This document shows positions 27,066 through 45,209 of a stretch of 64,000 bases of DNA, in pieces. Source of the DNA: Datnioides undecimradiatus (taxonomy: Eukaryota > Chordata > Actinopteri > Lobotiformes > Datnioididae); NCBI GenBank assembly GCA_008933995.1, contig WARS01000031.1, positions 2,198,001 through 2,262,000 on the forward strand, read 5' to 3'. The notes below the pieces were generated by a model, which had not been told where the DNA came from, did no database searches, and was given only the letters and a program-made list of their open reading frames with translations. Position 1 is the first letter of the stretch, and each line of letters opens with the position of its first letter. Position numbers and translations under genes: made by a program.

Positions 27066-30000
27066 TCAGTGTGGCCAGTCACACTTCCAGGGTTTAGACT
27101 TGGGCACTTTGAGACACTTTCCTAGCTTCTCACAACCTGCTGGGGCCCAGTTCTGTAAAGAGAGTAGCCATAATGTAAGCACAAGACGATATAGTTATCA
27201 AAGGTATTATTTATTGAGCACCACATCATTTATGTGTCCTGTGCTGTAAGTGTCTTGAGATATAAGCTGACTGCAGCCCTTTGTCCTGTGTCCTTACTGT
27301 CTGGGTCTTTTTCAAGTCTTTTCCTCTGGCTTAGCAATTAAATGACTATCACAACAGAACCAAGAGTTAATCAGAAGAAAAGAATATGGGGATGCGTGTA
27401 TGTCACATATGCAGTGTCATTCAATTTTAATGCTTAATGCATTGCCAGTAATGTAATTTATTTACAAAATAACCTGTTTGTCACTGAGTGGTGAAATGAC
27501 AAACTTTGGAAAAGTTTCACAGTGCATTTATTATCACCGGGAACTCTCTAGACAACCAATATTAAACTTGTAAGACTTTTACACATATTTCAGTTCCTTC
27601 CAAATGAGAAACAATAATAAAAAAGCAAAGGAATTCAAATAATGCAACATTCAAAATGTTACAATATGTCTCCTATATCACAGACAACAAAGGACATTGT
27701 TCCTAAACTGTGCTCTTTCTGCATATACATGTGAATACTGTAGATACGAGAATCAATAATCCAAAAAAAAATCAATAGATGTATACCACCATAACAGGAA
27801 AATACAAAGAAACCTCTTCTTAAAATTGTATGTATTTATTTTCACCACCAGGGGGCAGTGCCACACCGCACATTCATCCCCAGCACAGGCGGTCACAATC
27901 TCCGGTGCTCCGCGCGACAGAGCAGCTGCTCATTTAGCTGTTTCAAATAATAGCAGATTTTTTAAAAATCTATTTTTTTTTTTTTTTTGTCACAAAGGCT
28001 TAACACAGACACACAGCCAGGGCGGAAGGGCCAGATTAATGTGAAAATATGATACACATTCTGGTACTAGTTGGTAACGGTGATAAACAAATACAAAAAT
28101 AAAAGATAAACTGCTAAAGCGGAACACATTAACAGTCAGACTGAAAACAGATAACAAGGGAGAAAATATCTCCATTCAGGGTCTTTTATTGATTCTCTTT
28201 TTTTAATAAAGGCTTTATCAATTTCTCTTATGCATTTGTTTATCTGATGCACAAGTTTGATGAAGAGAGGAAAGAGATAAGGCGCAGCCTTTGAGGGCTG
28301 CTGGCCTGAAAGAAACATACAGTATCTGCTGAGAAAGCTGAACTGGTTTTGGTCCACTGCCTCTGGATATGGTGGCGAAGGGTAAGCTGCCACACACGAC
28401 ACACCCTGTTTTCACACTGTAACTATTCTCGTTTTTGCAATTCCACCAACAAAGTAACGACGTGAAAGACACAGATACGTTGATCAGTCTTAGGTTAATC
28501 TCACCATCACGGCCACATCACACATGTTGAGCTGGGGAATACCAGGGACCAGAGTCTTCTGATGCTGCTCTACAACCGGAGAGATCCTTCTCAGCACATC
28601 CCGGTACTCCTTACTCAAAACACTGCAAAAACACCATACACATAGACAGGCTGAGAATATTTATTAGTTTCACGATCGATAATCTGCAGGGGGTTTTTGG
28701 ACAAATTGAAGAGATATGTAAAGAAATAGTGAAAAATGTCACAATCTCCCAGAGCCTATCATGACGTCTTCAGATGTAACTCCAAAATTAAGATATTTAG
28801 TTTACACTGATACACGATGGAGACTGCAGTTAAACCTCATATTTTAGAAATTCTTAACAAAACAAAGCAGTCAATTATTTTTTTATCACTCTACTTTATT
28901 TCTTCAATCTCTTGTTCATGTTTTTCAGTAAAGCGTTCACAGATGTTCTGGTGTAGGTGCATAAAGAGCAAGAAAAAAAACCCCAAATTCAAATTCCTTA
29001 TAATTCCTTATATGTGCATAGATACAATTAAGTTGCTTCTAATTCAGAATATGTTTTGTCCAGGTGTTTAACCTTTACAAATGGAAAAGCTTAACAACAC
29101 AGGCACACACGCGAGCACACCCTCTGTACACTCTGATGAACATAACTCCTAAATTTGTGCCTTTTTGTCAGGGAGTGTTGCAGTGAATTAACTGCATATA
29201 TGTATCCACTTCAAGCTTTACTCATTATATCAGAGTGGGGATATTCAGTAGCTTTCATCAACAAAAACATAAACACATGCACACACCCAGGCTCTCCACT
29301 CGGGCACCCTTTGGGAAAGCACACTCAGCAGGGTGAACTATGTAACCCCTATCCCATCCCCTGTCTCTCAATTACTGCTGTTGGACACCAGTGAGCCCGA
29401 GCACCTCTGTGCATTATTATATTCAGTGTGTAAAACACAGGGGCCCTGAAGGCTTTCAAAGGAACGCTGCTCTCAATAGGACCTGTAGGGTTAATGGGCT
29501 CTGTGTGCCTGTGTGTGTGTGTGTGTGTGTGTACGTGTGTTGGGGGTGTGGGCGTTTGGTGGCGTGACACACGGACAGACAAATATCAGCAGTGCAATTA
29601 CACCCCTGATACACTCGCCGGCAGCACCTGTGCCAGCCTTCCATCCTCCCTCCACTGCAAACCCAACCCTCTGATTGGCCCCTGGGGACCATGTGCATGT
29701 GTGTGAGGTGAAGTGTCAATTAGAGTAATAACCCCAGGCCCTGTCCAGCTCACACCTACCCTCCCCTCTTAGATCTCCCACCGGGCAGCAAGGCTTCCTC
29801 CATCAGCCAGCACCTGCTCCTTTCCTTGATACTCTCAGTCTTTACTTTCCCCTGCAATTACTCGACTGGTAGTGCAGCGGCTGCAATTAGTCTCTCTCCT
29901 GGTGTGCCACATTCGTCATAAGCTAACTATCTGTGCATTGTGACCCCAGCTGATAGGGAAAAAACTGGTTTACTCCCCCTCCTTTAAAATCAGACATTCA

Positions 30001-33000
30001 GATTAAATTGCTTCAGCTATCTGAAATCGCAAATTCTGCTTTCGCTCGATCTTGATCAGCAAAGAGGGATATTCCACTCCCCTCCTATCTGCGACCGCTA
30101 CTTATTGCTGCAACTCATTTTGTGATAAGTGATGAAGCAACTTAATATAAGGAAAATATAAGGGAGATTCATCAGACTGCTATAATGGTTCGTTTTCTCC
30201 ATACAAGTCTGCAAGCAAAGCATGCCATGCAGTGGGAAACTTCTGCAAGACACCAAGTTTTCCATTGTTTTGTCTATGCGCTGAAAATCTAACAGTGCAG
30301 ACCTCTAAATCAAAAACTAATAATATCATTTGTTTATGCCCCCTCTGCAAACAAATAATAAAAAGCCCACAGTCAGCACAGCTCATTATCATGATTATAA
30401 CCCTTAGCCTACTGGTGGAGAGGCAAATTCTGGAATAATAAGCAGGCTGTATGCAAATTGAGTCTTTTGATTTATAATGTATGGCACCCAGGGGGGATGG
30501 GGGCATTGCTCAGGTGTGTCACCACTCTGATTACTGATTCATAACACTATTGCTGGAACAAACACACACACACACACACAAACAACCACACAGTGGCAGA
30601 AGGTGGGGGAATTGAGGAGACAATCAAATACATCTGTCCTGGCTACCCCTCCCCTCCACCATCTTCTCCACCCTGGTGGAAATTGAGCACTTCAGTGAGG
30701 ACTATTGATTGGGGACACAAGAGCTTGGTGGCAGGCAGCAGATGAGGCCAGACTGTGCAGGGCTGCCTGCAGTGTCAGGGGCCGGGACTATGCTCCGGAT
30801 GGCTGGGGCTCTGGGGACCTGAGCTGAGGTGGGTGGTGAGAAGCTAGGATGTGTTAACCTCAGGACTTCAGGTCACAGAGACGGAGGGCGATTCGGAGGG
30901 TGGCAAAAAGGCTTTGAACAAATCCATTGGGGATCTGAAGTCATTGAGTTAGGTTGATGTACACCTGTGTTTCCTCGTGGACAGATGGACCACCAACACA
31001 CACCTCATCATCCTCCAGCAAGTCAAAGTCAAATTGGTCTGAAACAACGGCAGCTAGGCCTCTATTCATACAAGGCAAAAGAAAACCAACGACAAACTAA
31101 AAACAACAGTATTTCTGTTCCCATATTTGCTCCCAGATTGCATAATCATAATCTGCGCTGTTTTCCTTGGTGACTGCTCCGGACTGGGGATTGTGTATTT
31201 GCGTGTGCGTCTGTGTGTGTGCTCTTTGCTATATCACAGGCTGCGACAGTAGTGAAGGTATGTGTGCAGACAGGCCCTACATCATCTTAAGTGGCTCTTT
31301 AGGTGCAGACAGAGATTAATGATGGCCAGGCAGCCAGTCCAGCTGGGGGACCGAGGAGCACACGGACAAAACGCACACATACACATGTGTACACACACAC
31401 TTAACTAGGATGGAGGAGAATGGTCCCAGTGGATGCAGAGGGACAGCAGCTGAGTGGTGAGAAGTGAGCTGAGGTGCGCGGCAGTGGGTGGAGAGAGAGG
31501 TAACGAAGGAAAAGTAGGAGGAAAGTTTGGAGAGGAAGGGGACTGAGCAGAGCGCTGTGGAGTGGATAGAAGCAGAACAGTGCATGCACAGTGAAGAGGT
31601 CATCCCAATGAGTGTCGGGAGGGCTGACCTTGTAGACGAACTCAACGACCCCCGTGAAAATGAGTGTGCTGTTTTTGCTTGCTCTGCGTGTGTGTGCACA
31701 CATCTAGCACTCAGCACAACACATGGCTGCATATTGATTGGTTTTTGCTTTTTTTTTTTTTTTATTCTTCCAAGTGAATAGCAAGGCTAAAAGGTGGGCA
31801 ATTGAAAAACAACATTAATGTTTTATCATCCAATCTCACTTCAGAACTGAGCAGGAGGCAAAGAGGAGATGAGGCCGGAGCAAAGAATATGAGAGGCAGA
31901 GCTGCAGAAGGCAGAAGAGAAAGGTCAATGTAGGTTTCATGGCAAGAGGGAGCCTAAGGGAACACTGTGCACAAAAGGAATAGTCTTTCATCAAAGCGAT
32001 TTTGAGATTATCTTAATGTATTAGTCATGGTGTCAGGTTGCACCATTTTTTTTTAAAAGATCACAGAAATATTCGACATTGGCAGAATACAGGAAAGGAT
32101 GACGCTCATCTATCTTTGCACCCTTATTTAGTAATGGTCTTAGTTCAGCATCGGCAGCCCGTGTCCTCTGGCGTCACTCCTCTCTGCGATTCTTAACTCT
32201 CCTCTGCACTGACGCAGAGACACACAAAACTCCATTAAACAGCACTCGCTCTCAATTTAGTCCTGAACAATTTATCTTGCAATTTTAACCTGCAGCGGTG
32301 CACCGGAGGGTTGAGGGCCAGATAGCGATCTTTAAGGAGCTGTTTGCAATCACAAAGAGAGGAGTGTAATCAGGCGCGCTCCGGCTGGGCGGATCAATCC
32401 GCCACCTTCTTTTTCATGCCACTGAATCAGCATTGATCTCATAAACATTCTGTGCAACCAACAGGCTAACCGCCTTCCTATTCTCACATCTCTACTGTTC
32501 ATTTTCCAACATCTTTTCCCTTGTTCCTGCGTGACTCCCCTCTTTTCTCCACCTCTCCCCTTTTTCTCAATCTCAGTGTGTCTGTTCCCTCTACTGGGAT
32601 TCAGCTGTGAGCGGAGTAGAAGTTTTCAAACAACGAACCTGATGGGGAACTTCTCCCCAGGATCCCGACCCAAGTGGAAAATGATTGGCTGCAGTGTGTG
32701 CTCTTTCTGCTCGTGAGTAGTCACACCTGGAACCTCTTCACCTGGACAAAAGTTGATACCCTGTGAGAGAAAACACATGAAAAGGCACAAGACATTTGAA
32801 TTTTATTTACATGAATGGTTGCATGTTGATATATTTGTTGAAGGCTCCCAGCTGATTTTTTATTCAAGTACACTTTTAATACAGCAGCCAGTTAGGGGTT
32901 TTCATCAAGTGAATGACTGCCTCAGTCGCACAGATCTTTGTGTGTGTGTGTGTGTATCTGAATGTAATTTAAGCAGAGATAATGACTGATAAAACAGTAT

Positions 33001-36000: not shown

Positions 36001-39000
36001 TCACTGTGTTAAAAGGAAGTCTTACAGTTTTTAACTCCTCCCATGAGTTGCTCCAGGTCCAGTAGTGAGCTTTGTACTGTCCGAGCCTCACCGCCATCAG
36101 CTCATTCCCACGGTAATAGAAAATTGGCCTGTTGAGGATGAGAAGAGAAAGAAATGATACTGAGAGTTGTTTTAGATCTTTTTCCTTGACATGCTTACAC
36201 TTCAAAGCCAACCATCACTGTTTATACCTACAATTGCAGTCCTTCAGTAAAGGAACATGAACTTGAAAACTCAAATTCAGAGATGCTGAATTCTTCACAC
36301 TTAGATAAAACAAGATGAAGAGTTTGTGACCATACTAGCAGCTCTGCAGGGCTGCACAGTGGTTTGTTAAGTTAAATGTCAATGTGCTCACAATAACTAT
36401 GCTAACATGATGATTAATGCTGCTTCAATGTTTACAAAGTTCTTAGCATACAAGCATTTTCTGATAAGCACGCGATACAAAGTACAGCTAAGTTACTAGA
36501 GTTCATCGTCTGGGAACCACAAACGTCTGTGCAAAACTCCACCACAGTCCTTCTGGTAGCTGCTCAGATATTCCAGTTTGAACCAAAGAGGTGGACCAGC
36601 CGACCGCCACTGGCACAACTCTAAGAAACTCTGCCTTGTTTACCTCTTGTGTGATGAAACTGACACTAATCACCCACTCAGGGGTGTGATAATGAACAGC
36701 GGAAGCAGGGGCCCAAAGGTAAAAGCAGTCACCTGTTTTGGAGTGTGTCTGATTGCTTCAACAGGACCGGTGTCAGATCCAGTCCATCAAAAGTCCTGTC
36801 ATGGGGCTGGCTGACACCAGCAAGAGCCAGACTGGTGGTGAACAGGTCCATCACACTGGCCAACTGGAAACTGACCTGCAGTGAGGACAGGAGAACAAAG
36901 ACGTTTATGCGCAGCTACGAGAAGCTACGTGAAAAAAAGTTGGGAATTTTGAAAATTGGGGAGAAAAAAACTTAAATTGTTCTTCATTTAACCGTGACAG
37001 GTGTATCCCACACAAACACACACACATTTTAATGGCAGCATCTTTTGACGAAATAGCTTCATCTTTCTACCACCAGTGGAAATAAGTTCACAAATCCAAT
37101 CCAGTACCACGAGCTGTCTCTTTTACACTGGATTTCCCTCATGAGCGCAGACAAGGTAACAATGCATAGTCATGATAGGATGTTTGTATGTGTGATTGTG
37201 TGTCCACATGAAGGAAAGAGGTGCATTTCTTCAGTCCCATCTCTAATCTCTGCTTGCAGGTTTATTCTAAAAACCTCCAAATGCTTCTTTTTCTAAATTA
37301 TTTTTTTTTGGGGGGGCAAAGAAAGAGAGGAGAAGAAGTAGGGAGAGGACAAGGCCCGGGCAAGCAGGCGGCTGGAGCTAGAGCGAGCTGGTGTTTTATC
37401 TCCTTCTCCCAGTCCCAGTGAAAAGCTTTATTTTATTTATAAACTTTGAACTATTTTCAGATAAAATGCCATTTTTTCGCTGTCATCCTTGATCTTCCGT
37501 TCCATTCTCTCCTGAGCGAGCCTTAGAGGGAGACGGCACGCTCACAATCAGATAGCGCTATCAGGCCTCTGCAGCTGCACCGCCATGTGCCGCTGTGCTC
37601 CTATCGGCAGCCAGCACACATACACACATACACACAGACACACAGACACACGCTCACGCTCGCGCGCACACACACACACACACGCACGCACACACACACA
37701 CACACAAGCTCCTAAGCACTGAAATGAATTCCCTTTTCTTCTGTATCCACAGAACTAGCCGCAGAAAAGGCTTTGCAATGCATTCCATGATCTATCTGCA
37801 CATCCAGACACTCTTTCTCACAAACACACACACACACACACACCCTCACAGATTTAGTCCTTCATTTTTTTTTTTAAATCTCCCCTCACACAGACACACA
37901 CAAGCCATTAAAGAAGACAGGACAAAAGGACACAAGAAGAAGCAAAACTGACATTTAGTTGGTAATAACTTGCATGACCAAAAAACCCAAACTTTCAGAC
38001 TCGGCTGGTCTGACAGAGGAATTTATCTTGCGAGCTGCCATCTTTTTATTTCATGCCTTTATTAGCTCTGTCCTCGTTTGCCGTCCATGCTGAACTTCAT
38101 TCTTTCTTCACCCTTTGTTCTTCCTTTTTTTTTTTAAATGACTCATCACTCTCTATTAATGTCACACTCTTCTTCTCTCTCTTTCTCTCGTCTATTTCTG
38201 TGTTGTGAGCGGTGATGTTGGTTATCTGAGGAGGCAGCGCTTCTATCCCTGTCCCTGCCACTCTCCCTGTGTGTCTGCCGCCTGATAAAACGCAACAAAA
38301 GGGATTGTGACGCTCGACAACATTGTGGGGCCGACACCCCCACCCGCCCCCCCATCTTTGTTCCTGCTCCTCATCATCCTGGCCCCTCGTCCCCCTCCCA
38401 CAACCTCAGGCACCAGGAGAATGCTGAATCTGCACCTGCTTCAGACCAACCACGCTCCTTCATTCCAGTGCACCTCTTTACATGCTCCTGAATCTGAGAG
38501 AGCGACTGAGTTTCATCACTCAGATGCATCCACAGCTTTTTGTCTCTCTAAGACATGTGGACTTACACACTGAAGTGTTCTTTCAGCCCCCTCTATCCTC
38601 CAAAAACTTGTCTCCTCATCTTGATACTATAAAAATGCATCTGTCCCTGGTCAGTCCCAATAAACCTGCTGAGATCCTCCTTTAACAAAGGCCTGCATGG
38701 CTGTTTGTTGTCTCCAGCATTTTGCTCCAAGAGCTTATAGACTTTTCAATGCGCAGATCAACAGAGATTTCAGAGGACTACAAATAGGGTGTGGGGGGTG
38801 GTCTGGGGCAAAACTGTGCCCACTCTGTTCTCCCTCACAAGAAGCTCTGAATGATAAATCCAGAGCTGTGGCGCACAGTAGCTCCAAAAAAGCAGCTCTG
38901 TCATCACAACCCTAGAGAGCTTCAAGGAGGATCTACTGACCCTCATTCTCACTGCTGAGCAACAAATGCAAATACAAATACACACACAGGTGTTTTGTGA

Positions 39001-40336
39001 TTTACATCTGTGTCTCTTCAACTGATCTGGAAAGTTGTCTGTCACACACACAACTAAAGCAACACACATATGAAAGCATGCATCTATATGCAGGCTTGCA
39101 GAGTCAAACAAAATGCACTCAGACATACACGTAGACACACTGATCAATTATAATGTGGCACAGGTGCAGCAAAGCCCTGCAAACCCAACAGCGTTCCCGG
39201 CAGTGTGGCGGTGCCAACGTCTTTTGCACTCTTCCTTCCTTTTCTCTTCTACACCAGCCACTTCTTTTACTTCTTCCTTGCTTCCTTCCCTGTACACCAC
39301 CACCCCCCGCACCCCTACCCCTCCACCCCTCCGTTCCTTTATCCTGAGCGCCTGGCATATTCAGATACTGAAGTCCTCATTACAGCTCAATCCAACCTCA
39401 GCAAACACACAAACAGATTAGCCGCTTAAGACGCTCCCAATCCCCCTCTCCCTCGCTACTCTGCTGTGCTATCAGGCCCCAGCACACCCCTGTGAGATGA
39501 GCCAGGGGCAAGGCTTACTGCAGACTGCAGCCTCCGCTCGCTCCTCCACCAAATCCCTCTGCGTCACAGCCCCGTGTCACAGCTGCCCCTAATACAATTA
39601 AAAGTCATTTGCAGAACGCACAGGCTTAGAGGATCACGGTGTGGGTGGGTGTGGGGGGGCTTAAGTGGGGAGGGGAGAGAGGGAAAGAGAGTTTGGGGCA
39701 TTAATTCCAGCCAAACATATTTGAGGAACTCAGTGGAAAAGGCGCCCACACGCTTCGTGGCCATAATCACACTGATTATCTTTATCGTTTCCGTTCAGTG
39801 GAGTTCGATAAGCTCGACAGAAATTACAGTTGAGATTAACTGGTTATGGCTGCAATGGAGTCATGCGTGTAAAGTGGTAAATACACAAATGGAAACAAAA
39901 AGCAACAATGGATTTCGAGAGGATTAATGCAATAATTATTTCGCTACTCTCAACCTGCTTTATAGTCTGCCATAGCCCTGCACCAGAGAACATTTCAGCT
40001 CCTGTTGCCTGTTAGGCAGAACATAAAGGGAACAACAATGCTTAGAAAAAAAAAAAAAAAAAAACTGGCTCTGGATCCTGGGTCTAACTCTACTCCGGTC
40101 TCGAGAAAGATGGCGAGGATTAAGTGAATGATAAGCCTTGAATTTTTTTTTTTAGTGACTTTATTTAGTAAGCACTTTAAAAACCGCAGTATTCTCACCG
40201 TGCCCTCTTTGATAATGTCCAGGCCACCAGGCAATAGCAGGCTCCCTCATGCCCCGCTAAAAGTGGTCTCCTTCCATGACGGCCATTACTGCCACCTGAG
40301 AGTCAAGCACAAAAACACATGTATCCCTGTGTCAAA

Positions 40337-40374
<38 letters not shown>

Positions 40375-43300
40375 AAGAAAAACAGTCGAATCAGTGCCTG
40401 CACTCATTGGGCCTGGCGTTAGAGCAGCTCCGTTATCCGAGGTGAAGAAGACAAATGTATTATTTTCTATGCTCAGACTCCGCAGCCATGACAAGATCTG
40501 ACCGACGCTGTAGTCCAGCTCCATCACTGCATCACCATACCTACAAAAAACAGACAACTGCACCTTCTACCATTCCCCTCGTGAGAAATGCATTCATTCA
40601 TAACCTTGATAGCAACTACAACCAAGAGCCAGCGAGTTATATAGTGTACCTTTGCTTCCTGAGCTGGCTCTTCCTAAGAAGCGTTGGGCGTGAACAGGGG
40701 CGTGAGTGTATCGACACCCAGTAGAGGAAGAAGCGGCCGCTGGGCTTCAGTCTGACGGAGTATAAAGTCAAGACCTTCCTGCAACAGAGGTGGGGGTGTG
40801 AGAGTGTTACAACACTGTCAGTGCAATTGTCAAATGACTTGCTGTAGCTTCATTTACAGGCTGTCAAGCTGCATAGAAGAAAATAACCTCTTTTCACTTG
40901 CATACTACTTGCATTGATGTTTATGAGTTTGTAGGGCATTCTGTTATCAGGTACACTATGTTAAAATGAATGTAGTCTAATTTTCACAGAGGTATGTTGA
41001 TTTGCTGTTTGAAGTTTTGAGGCTGCACTGTTGTTTTTAAACTGAGAAATTTCTGATATTTTTGCCCATCAATGAGATAAGATTAATATTGGAAACAATT
41101 CACCTCATACACTGCAAAATGGTTTCAACAATAGACGTACAATTATAACTGATTTGTTGCCGGACTAGACTACATTAGTTTGTCAAACAAAATGGAAATT
41201 CGCAAATATATACCAATGAATAGAAATGCACTTTACAGGCTGTATAAGGCATTTTCTAATTTCTTGAATTATGTTTCCAAGTGAACTCAGTTGACATCTG
41301 TTGACGCACACAAAATGAGACAGCATAGTAACTCATGCACAGTAACTGACAGACCAGCACTGAGCAAACATGACTTCACTGTGTACACCTTTTAGTCTAG
41401 GATATAGTCCCCAAATTGCATTTTTGCTGGGTTAACACAAGCATGTCATATCAGGACTGATGTCAAACATCTGTAGTTTTGCAAAAATACAAATGCAAAT
41501 GTTGCAACATCTGAATCTGTTTAAAACAACCAGGGACACTGATAACTGCATAACCAAAACCAGTTTTGCCGCATCATGTGAGCTAAAGTTAACAAAAGCT
41601 CCTGTTGACAGAGCCATCCTGTTCTTATGATAACATATTACACCTCTCAAGCATGCAGTGTGTCTCTGGAGGCTTTTGATCCCTTTAGGAACAAATGGGA
41701 GGGCTGAGGTAAGCAGGAGGAGAGATAATCAAGCGTCTGCTTAAGAAAAGCAGAGGACTGATAATCAGAATCAGGCTTTAATTACACTCTTAATTTGTTA
41801 AATAAATTGTTATGTTTTGTGCTTTTATGTGTTTTGGTGTTGAGGGAAGAGCGATTTCCCATTCTGGTGGACAATGAACCTTTCTATTGCTAGTCTATTT
41901 CTATTCTATTCATGGCTTTAGGACAGGATTTTGGGTGTGCCTGACACACAAGAGAGCCTCAACTTACCTGCAAATAGATCTGTGTAGGTGGACTCTCGGT
42001 CTGCACTATCAATCCAAACTCCCTCATAGTATCCTGCAAAACCGTCGTTTGATATGGTTTTATTTAATAAACATTCATTATTAATTATCCACCACCTTGT
42101 CTGGAATACCACTGAGGACACTGCGCCATCTCTCCCGTGCTAAGTTCCAACTCCATGGCTTGATTCTTTAATGATCTGATGTATTGTCGCGGCTTTCACT
42201 CTGCCTCCAATTTGATCGAAACCACTGCAGACAATATCATCAAGACAGTGGAAGCTCTTGCGGACTGTGTTTGCAGGAGGATTTTGGCGAAAGACATATT
42301 TGGGGAGTCTCAGCAGAGCCGAGCAGAGGGAACTGTTATGAGGTGTTGCTGAAGCGTGGCGCGGCGAGCAGAGAAGCAGTGACAGGCATCTCTCTTTCTT
42401 ACGCTTCACTTCCTCCAGGTGTCTCCGCATACAGCCAACGCAACCTGCCGTCTCTTGAGGGCGTGTGTGTCTGTGTGTATACCTGTCTATGTGTGTGTGC
42501 ATGTCTGTCCAGGGCCCAGGTATGCAGCGCTGATTAAACCCACGGCTAAGCGAAAAACACGCCCGGCTGCCAGTTCCAATGACCCTGAATACACATATGG
42601 CTGTTTTGGGGAAAACAAATGGGCGGAAAATGGAATACACAAGCACAGCTGGTAGAGAAGGAAGAGGAGGGGAGACACTCAACTCATCCAGAGGAGCAGC
42701 CAGCCAAACTATTCCTCTGAGTCATGGGGAAAGAAGATTTTTATAGATTCCCTGCCTGTGTTTCTGTCTGCCGTTATGTATATCTGAGTGCCTGAGTGTG
42801 ATAGTACCTGCCAACCATCTCCAAGTTGTTGTAGACAGGGATGTTAGGTCTGATGCTGCTGTTGTAGGGGCCAAAGTGGCAGTTTGGTGCACCGAACCAT
42901 TCATCAAAACCATTCTCCAGAGGCAGGTACTGTGGTCTGTGGCCCAGATGCCTGTAGTGACAAACAAAGTGCACTCAGACACTGTAAGATCATCGTGACT
43001 GAAGGACCATTCCACATGTTTTGACCATTTCTACAAATCAGGTATAATACACATGAAAGCACAACAGACTGATTGTGATGCTTTATTACAGTTATTACCT
43101 TTAGGCTTTCACGGGTCTCCATTCCTTCCAGTACATTATTAACTTACAGAGGCTTAAAATTTTGACATACCTCTGCAGTAAAGTTGCGTGTTTGGTGAGA
43201 AGACTGTCAAGATTTTTTTAAAACAAGCAGTCATCCCTGGGTGCATCAGCACAGAGGAGAGACAGCAGCCATGTAATACAGTATGTGAGAAATTATCAAT

Positions 43301-45209
43301 CCCAAACAAACTTCAGCTCTCTGCATAAAGATTTTCATATCCCACTGAAAGGAATGTAATTCAGTGAATGCCTTTAGGGGAAAATGCATTAAACATTTAG
43401 TACAGAATTATTGTTTATTGTGGAAAATCAACAACAGAGATAGTAAAAGTGGCTATAGACAACTTTTCAACCTAAAGCAAAATACCTTTCTAGTGCCAGT
43501 TCAAGTATACATGACCTACAATAAACTGGCTAAAGCATGCAAATATACTGCGAGGACCCTTTTAATTAGTGGCTTGCTCATAACATTTTCTAACCAACTT
43601 TTATCAAAAGACAAGTGAAGAGTGCTGATCTATACATTTAACACATTTAAAGTGTTAAAGTGTATTTCTGATTTTGGACTATGTTTATAATTTTTTTATG
43701 CAAATTGCTTTAAACCTTGCCTCCTTCACTGTATATATATTATATATATATATAAAGTTTATTATACCATCAGCAGGCCTCATCAACATAACCTTTAAAA
43801 CTTCTGTAGTAAAGAAAGATGAAGAGCTCACCACTTGCCCACTATCTTGCTGACGTAGCCCTTTGGCTTCAGCATCTGGGGTAACAAAATCTCATCCTTG
43901 GAGATTCCTCCCACTATCTCCTGTGGGGTGTATGCTATAAAAAAAAGGTCAGAACTTAGTGTACAAAACTTTTCTGTAGCTTTACAGCAGACTTTATGAT
44001 TCAAAATCTATAAGAAATGATTTGCTGCTGGATAATTTGCACTGTAAGGATATACTGAGGGTGTACCATTTCTGGCGTGGGCATTCGTGGTGTAGAAACC
44101 GTTTCTGACAGGCAGCCTCCCAGTGAGAAGTGCAGCTCTGGCTGTTGTTAAAATGGTAGGAAAAAAGTTATTAGGATTTCTGTCCAAATGCTTTTTTTAC
44201 TGGCAAACAAAAACAATCTACTTGAGTAGTTGAGCAGGTTTTTCTGCAGGTTTTTCATTAGTAACTCTTCATAAAACAAACAGCATAGAGACTCTTTTCT
44301 GAGTACATATGTAACTTGAGTAAAGATACATTAAGTTGACAGATGTGAGGTTTCTCAAACCAGCAATGTTGCAATACCTGTTTTCCTGCACTGAGTTGCT
44401 GTATCATACTGTATGTTTTTGTTGTCTTTTTCTGCATGCTTTATTTAAATGAGAAAAACTTTTTAGCAAAAACAAGTGTTGTTATGTGGTACGTCAGCCG
44501 TGTTACATTTACACTTCATACAACATGTAAATGATAATAAATTGCAAGGAACTGAAAAAAAACCAAGTGGAGATAGAAAGCTTCAGCTGTGATCAGAGAC
44601 CAAAAACATCTTAGCATCTTACAAAACAGGAAGTGCTGCTTCATATTCTGCATTTTTAGCTGACTCACATGGGGAACAGAGTGGGTTGGCAGTGTAGAAG
44701 TTTGGAAGAAGCATGCCCTGAGCGGCCATGGCATCCAGGTTGGGGGTCTCTTTGGAAGGCTGGCCAAACACCCCCAAGTCCCCCCAGCCCATCTGGAGAA
44801 CATTGAGAAAACAGGGACAGTTCATTAACTGCTCCTGCTTGTACTAGTCACACCTAGAGGGGTAAAACACACAAGCAAGCACAGACACTAACACAGTGTA
44901 CAGGCTGCAATGAGATTAGTGAGATGAACTTCAGAAGGAACTCCACAGAGTTCACAGACAAAGACAAAACAAACACAGAGAGAATGAGCAAGAGACAGAG
45001 AAGCACACTTTGGCTCTCAAACTCATTCAGTTCTCAAAAACACTGTGCTGTGATCAAGACATTCACATTCAACAAAGAAAAAAAAAACTTACGTCATCCA
45101 TGAGCATGATGATAATGTTTGGAGATGATACATTTGGATCTTCTTCTGTCGAAGAGCAACATATTATTGCACAAAAGAGAGCTAAAGTTTGAGTACCTAT
45201 CACTCGCAT
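27066..45209 (-). CDS. galns: N-acetylgalactosamine-6-sulfatase (galns), frame broken in exons 7 and 9
   Basis: Lysosomal sulfatase removing 6-sulfate from keratan sulfate and chondroitin-6-sulfate (family knowledge; loss causes Morquio A in humans). Fourteen reverse-strand exons: 45093-45209, 44669-44792, 44067-44141, 43832-43934, 42808-42951, about 41968-42022, 40650-40778, 40404-40540, 40199-40295, 36733-36875, 36026-36128, 32639-32760, 28505-28622, 27066-27152. Exons 2-5 and 11-14 have the same sizes as human ones as I recall them. Motifs: signal peptide (about 1-20), metal-binding LMDDMGWGDLG, formylglycine signature CSPSR with Cys78 split across exons 2/3, KWHLGH (exons 4/5), TSDNGAAL (exon 8), [12 protein letters not shown] (exon 12), and C-terminal [13 protein letters not shown]. 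Literal translation hits a stop at 40674-40676 after about 240 residues, because exons 7 and 9 carry several indels relative to the family. Either a decaying gene or clustered base errors. Confidence 0.93.
27153..28504 (-). other. galns intron 13
   Basis: A 1.35-kb AT-rich intron with a strong CTCF-like site at 27844-27860 (listed separately) and a poly(T) run near 27971-27989. No coding-like frame was seen. Confidence 0.8.
27844..27860 (+). promoter_or_regulatory. CTCF-type motif
   Basis: CACCACCAGGGGGCAGTG matches the vertebrate CTCF core (CCACCAGGGGGC followed by R-S) at every strong position. It lies in galns intron 13, about 1.6 kb from the cklf start, near the junction between the CMTM block and the galns block. 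Binding is inferred from the motif only. Confidence 0.65.
29511..29537. repeat. (GT)n microsatellite
   Basis: GT dinucleotide tract in galns intron 12. Confidence 0.9.
30562..30580. repeat. (AC)n microsatellite
   Basis: Short AC tract in galns intron 12. Confidence 0.9.
32130..32480. promoter_or_regulatory. Candidate conserved non-coding element in galns intron 12
   Basis: Complex, non-repetitive sequence with no microsatellite. It includes the homeodomain/GATA-like run AACAATTTATCTTGCAATTT near 32268 and a perfect 16-base palindrome at 32388-32403 (GGCGGATCAATCCGCC). The texture differs from the surrounding intron. Calling it conserved is inference, because no alignment could be made. Confidence 0.3.
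32761..36025 (-). other. galns intron 11
   Basis: A 3.3-kb intron containing short TG/AC tracts, poly(A) near 34571-34585 and complex sequence at about 35400-35850. The open frames here, including one of about 124 codons around 33740-34114 (-), have repeat-driven composition and no recognisable protein features. Confidence 0.75.
37613..37706. repeat. Compound (CA)n microsatellite
   Basis: About 94 bases of CA repeats interrupted by CG, TA and GA units, in galns intron 9. A second (CA)n tract follows at 37824-37842. Confidence 0.93.
39560..40020. promoter_or_regulatory. Candidate conserved enhancer-like block in galns intron 9
   Basis: Complex non-repetitive sequence with clustered developmental transcription-factor motifs: two TTATC (GATA) sites one base apart at 39776-39786, TTAATGCAATAATTATTT near 39924, and CATTAATTCC near 39699. 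It lies just downstream of the damaged galns exon 9. No open frame resembles a protein. Regulatory function is inference; a possible target is cbfa2t3, whose human counterpart shares this block. Confidence 0.3.
40199..40295 (-). pseudogene. galns: galns exon 9, damaged
   Basis: Acceptor CTCAG and donor GTGAGA are intact and the exon opens in frame with GSNG. It is 97 bases against 104 in human (as I recall), so the frame is not kept. The segment expected to read PFLCGKQTTFEGG is shortened and shifted. Pieces such as ACCACTTTT and then [12 protein letters not shown] remain readable in another frame. One extra base follows the codon for the H of WWPGH. At least three indels separate it from a functional exon. 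Confidence 0.75.
40338..40372. repeat. (CA)n microsatellite in galns intron 8
   Basis: About 17 CA units fill roughly a third of the 108-base intron between galns exons 8 and 9. Its edge is about 31 bases from the exon 8 donor. Confidence 0.95.
40650..40778 (-). pseudogene. galns: galns exon 7, damaged
   Basis: Opens in frame ([15 protein letters not shown]), then needs successive frame changes to recover FFLYW, then GVD, then THAPV and FLG, before the exit phase demanded by exon 8. Relative to the family there is an extra base near GCGGCCGC (40733-40740) and missing bases after the FFLYW codons. Read literally it stops at 40674-40676. Splice sites are intact. The exon is 129 bases against 125 in human (as I recall). 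The catalytic His of the THAP motif falls in this exon. Confidence 0.8.
41968..42033 (-). other. galns: galns exon 6 with ambiguous acceptor
   Basis: The end of the exon reads TQIYLQ and a GTAAGT donor follows, as expected. The obvious acceptor (TTTTGCAG, exon start 42033) gives 66 bases and an immediate stop when joined to exon 5. Using an AG 11 bases further in (exon start 42022, 55 bases) restores the frame but drops the conserved YYE. Human exon 6 is 67 bases as I recall, so one indel or a shifted splice site is needed. Confidence 0.65.
43727..43754. repeat. (TA)n tract
   Basis: Near-perfect TA dinucleotide repeat in the galns intron between exons 4 and 5. Confidence 0.85.

Follow-up and report, generated by a model that had tools for sequence, protein, structure and literature searches.

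Frame breaks in exons 6, 7 and 9 of galns from Datnioides undecimradiatus probably reflect a local assembly error and not gene loss

Three exons of galns, the gene for N-acetylgalactosamine-6-sulfatase, are frame-broken in the genome assembly of Datnioides undecimradiatus. Has this fish lost the enzyme, or is the sequence wrong at this place? GALNS is the enzyme missing in human Morquio A disease, and a fish living without it would be of interest if the lesion were true. The original prediction left the choice between gene loss, with or without another copy, and clustered indel errors of the assembly. In this study, we believe that galns is very likely an ordinary gene within a stretch of poor consensus; clustered errors are favoured, gene loss found no support and no other copy was detected among the best candidates scored. 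The damage probably bears the marks of a local assembly error, with real gene loss unlikely, and, judged from its sequence, galns is probably a functional single-copy gene.

The assembly comprises 581 Mb in 497 contigs, and the window, that is, the whole stretch of 64 kb analysed here, was drawn from contig C479 (6.49 Mb). The gene lies on the minus strand at 45209-27066, with 14 of 14 exons present and their order kept (Table 1). Among solved structures, human GALNS (PDB 4fdi) ranked first for the N-terminal 187 amino acids and for the part encoded by exons 10-12, with E values of 4.4e-89 and 1.8e-51, respectively, and arylsulfatase A was far behind as a solved relative of these two clean parts. 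The active-site cysteine motif C-x-P-S-R (CSPSR) spans the junction of exons 2 and 3. The closest solved relative, this motif and the 14 ordered exons all agree with GALNS of sulfatase family S1. An open frame through all exons was not found, and it is in exons 6, 7 and 9, out of frame in the assembly, that the fish gene differs from human GALNS, which it resembles in its 14-exon layout and order, its CSPSR motif and its neighbours. These neighbours, trappc2l (about 45.7-47.3 kb of the window) and pabpn1l (about 48-51 kb), are located upstream of galns with clean coding sequences in which no breakage was seen, and their position beside GALNS is, we assume, the vertebrate gene order. Exons of cbfa2t3 begin to appear approximately 5 kb past the window end, and APRT was not seen across the 124 kb examined around galns.

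Table 1. Positions and state of the galns exons in the 64-kb window
Feature	Position	Strand	State and basis
galns exon 1	45093..45209	-	intact; start codon and signal peptide region; from translation
galns exon 2	44669..44792	-	intact; translation, tblastn, frame-shift-tolerant alignment
galns exon 3	44067..44141	-	intact; CSPSR formed on joining to exon 2; translation
galns exon 4	43832..43934	-	intact; translation, tblastn, alignment
galns exon 5	42808..42951	-	intact; translation, tblastn, alignment
galns exon 6	41968..42033	-	66 bp, frame-broken; in-frame TGA at 42026-42024
galns exon 7	40650..40778	-	129 bp, taking the GT there as donor; frame-broken, 3 shifts and codon gaps
galns exon 8	40404..40540	-	clean; 3' limit tentatively set at the GT after 137 bp
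galns exon 9	40199..40295	-	97 bp, frame-broken
galns exon 10	36733..36875	-	intact; translation, tblastn, alignment
galns exon 11	36026..36128	-	intact; translation, tblastn, alignment
galns exon 12	32639..32760	-	intact; tblastn, alignment
galns exon 13	28505..28624	-	intact; limits from tblastn
galns exon 14	27066..27161	-	intact; TGA end at 27068-27066; 5' limit approximate

The extent of the damage was evaluated by a frame-shift-tolerant alignment with human GALNS, the sequence of which agrees with PDB 4fdi in the parts of exons 1-5 and 10-12. Eight exon stretches (2, 4, 5, 8 and 10-13) served as the intact control, and exons 1, 3 and 14 were assessed by translation outside this alignment. 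Under the strict penalty, the numbers of shifts in exons 6, 7 and 9 were 1, 3 and 3, respectively (7 in 292 bp), compared with 0 in the eight intact stretches. Under the laxer penalty, the numbers were 3, 3 and 3 (9 in total), and exon 10 took 2 spurious shifts that replaced one codon gap. The claim of eleven clean exons was thus borne out for eleven of the 14 by translation, by tblastn and by the eight stretches free of shifts, and the predicted breakage of exons 7 and 9 was reproduced with three shifts each at both penalties. Exon 6, which had been called doubtful with its obvious acceptor, is as broken as the other two. Exons 1-5 joined together form an open frame of 187 residues, and reading on through the obvious acceptor gives R-I-L-stop (TGA at 42026-42024), a product of 190 residues. 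Translation would end ahead of the THAP histidine and also ahead of the second half of the active site, and we agree that a genuine lesion would be expected to abolish activity.

The THAP segment is present in pieces in exon 7. The literal stop reported at 40674-40676 of this exon exists as the letters TAG; it is a stop only in a shifted frame, and in the best alignment these bases belong to TTA GGA (Leu-Gly). Between the two broken exons, exon 8 was found clean as predicted, at least through its SDNG motif, and the GT after 137 bp, where its uncertain 3' limit has been placed, would preserve the frame. Exon 9 is indeed short and shifted, with 97 bp against 104 bp in the human exon. An intact spare exon 6, 7 or 9 was not found within the window by tblastn with human GALNS.

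The shifts are dense (2.4 per 100 bp of the broken exons) and tightly clustered. All 7 strict shifts fall within 292 of about 1,573 coding bp, for which the chance is about 8e-6 for exons 6, 7 and 9 and, by a hand estimate, about 0.003 once any three of the fourteen exons are allowed. Homopolymer runs of at least 6 bases were less frequent at 40.2-42.0 kb (0.5 vs 2.3 per kb, with one run observed). As a sign of homopolymer collapse in the island, this depletion is weak and not significant. The only repeats near 40-43 kb were CA/GT repeats and short palindromes.

Pseudogenes gather substitutions alongside indels, along their entire length. With shifts allowed, 59 of 91 codons in the broken exons (65%) were as in human GALNS, compared with 221 of 324 (68%) in the eight intact stretches, and the broken exons taken singly had 62-70% identity. 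We therefore compared this value with a simulation in which the intact galns exons were mutated at indel rates for which roughly 2 shifts were detected per 100 bp. Codon identity in the simulated exons was 57-66% when each indel came with 0-1 substitutions; three substitutions per indel lowered it to 46-56%, and eight to 33-44%. The observed 65% against 33-44% at 8 substitutions per indel indicates short islands of indels almost without substitutions, with room for a few substitutions per indel if exons 6, 7 and 9 originally exceeded average conservation. As for a unitary pseudogene, disabling changes are present and no second copy appeared among the best candidates scored in this one assembly; relaxed constraint, namely substitutions together with indels in all exons, was not found.

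Real variation in the same assembly looks different. Contigs C473 and C474 (both about 2.81 Mb) have aligned pieces that are 95-99.9% identical over about 48 kb, so that both haplotypes of this region are apparently represented. Over these 48 kb, we counted 149 substitutions between the two and 39 indel events, most of which fall in short tandem repeats and only 7 of which are single-base. This indicates that real variation in this assembly is dominated by substitutions.

The same signature was found in other conserved genes, in tandem clusters only. The tubulin C-domain (PF03953) was matched at 28 places, of which 13 had full length and no stop, and the matches in an alpha-tubulin tandem cluster at C496:2.919-2.964 Mb were fragmented. 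Four copies (L038, L039, L043 and L044), from four of the six odd places in this cluster, were examined. Their shifts numbered 12, 13, 18 and 18, respectively, within 773-819 bp each, and the human residue was kept at 228/254, 219/255, 210/250 and 213/245 codons (84-90%). Blocks identical or nearly identical to human alternate, inside one exon, with scrambled blocks that still encode the correct residues but switch frame. Because alpha-tubulin is nearly invariant, a decayed copy would not retain 84-90% identity. A tubulin control (L041) had 1 shift, and its slice enters an intron; a second one (L040) was dropped as a control since part of it is N, and L042 showed no island by eye, its split match resembling introns.

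For connexins (PF00029), 62 matches were obtained, of which 37 had no stop and covered model positions from at most 21 to at least 220, and ten odd places were followed up. L046 (C307:279.8 kb) has a clean second half after a scrambled first part, in which 318 bp required 7 shifts and 51 of 98 codons matched human Cx43, a paralogue. In its neighbour L051 (C307:282.5 kb), visual inspection showed a brief scrambled segment. In the remaining eight (L045, L047-L050 and L052-L054), no island was seen by eye; they look intact, or their split matches resemble introns. Outside galns, the density of shifts was about 1.5-2.3 per 100 bp, matching that in galns.

Indels almost without substitutions, together with the same islands in alpha-tubulin and connexin genes, lead us to favour a local consensus error. 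Such islands exist in the assembly, and by analogy with them exons 6, 7 and 9 would fall in brief stretches of poor consensus in which single bases were lost or gained. We infer that errors in sequencing or polishing of a long-read assembly produced the islands, and that the real galns presumably encodes a normal enzyme. The case is like the long-read indel errors that mimic pseudogenes, in which single-base indels disrupt otherwise conserved genes, and unlike the usual errors in that dense islands stand within an otherwise clean vertebrate assembly. However, some observations count against this reading. Most places tested in the assembly looked clean, including C473/C474 with few single-base indels, connexins and tubulins, both neighbours of galns are unbroken, and the depletion of long homopolymers at 40.2-42.0 kb is weak. 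Furthermore, the comparison islands sit in tandem gene clusters, where poor consensus is expected, whereas galns is single-copy.

Copy number was assessed by searches that score the best candidates only, so that an allele missing from the assembly would escape them. Among the candidates scored, the DNA of 40150-42100 matched only itself, and the proteins of exons 1-5, of exons 10-12 and of a read-through of exons 7-9 gave 18, 4 and 8 matches, respectively, without a second galns. Matches outside the galns locus had at most 53% identity, save one on C334 (67% across 36 residues) that we take to be arylsulfatase A. A second galns copy, which the original prediction had proposed to look for, was therefore rejected, as the DNA query and the three protein queries gave, among the best candidates scored, the galns locus and mostly low-identity matches.

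The most serious alternative is a real lesion, in which galns is disrupted in the fish, or in this individual's allele, and a working copy is lacking. The frame breaks are present in the sequence, a second copy was not found, and the assembly outside the islands mostly looks accurate. However, neutral decay would strike all exons with several substitutions per indel, whereas 11 of 14 exons are clean with the expected similarity to human and the broken ones have indels with hardly any substitutions; a technical cause is also suggested by the alpha-tubulin copies, which show this pattern too. We regard a real lesion as unlikely, and no report of galns loss or of a galns pseudogene in fish was found among the literature matches listed. 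If it were true, the lysosomal breakdown of keratan sulfate and chondroitin-6-sulfate would be reduced or done by another sulfatase. More generally, that the indels are real, whether by recent galns loss or by substitution-poor bursts of single-base indels that also scarred the alpha-tubulin and connexin clusters, seems quite improbable to us.

A true local mutation burst, in which about 1.8 kb of one haplotype was resynthesised in an error-prone way or converted from a decayed copy, would account for the tight clustering, and islands at three unrelated loci might reflect a process acting across the genome. Yet the clean exon 8 lies inside the stretch, no DNA-level donor for conversion was found in the assembly among the best candidates scored, and we know of no process that gives 2-3 indels per 100 bp without matching substitutions, as would have to be the case here. 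Such a burst is very improbable. We hardly credit that galns stays functional through transcripts that bypass the broken exons: a joint skip of exons 6 and 7 would keep the frame (66+129 bp, divisible by 3), but exon 9 is not skippable in frame by the human exon lengths, conserved active-site residues would be lost, and the 62-70% human codon identity of the skipped exons would be left unexplained.

With the poor consensus at galns as the favoured reading, we suggest that a broken frame without an excess of substitutions in this assembly calls for reads first and for a claim of gene loss only later. In the connexin search, the matches at C193:953486 and C196:954514 had identical scores and near-equal positions, and these contigs are perhaps another haplotype pair.
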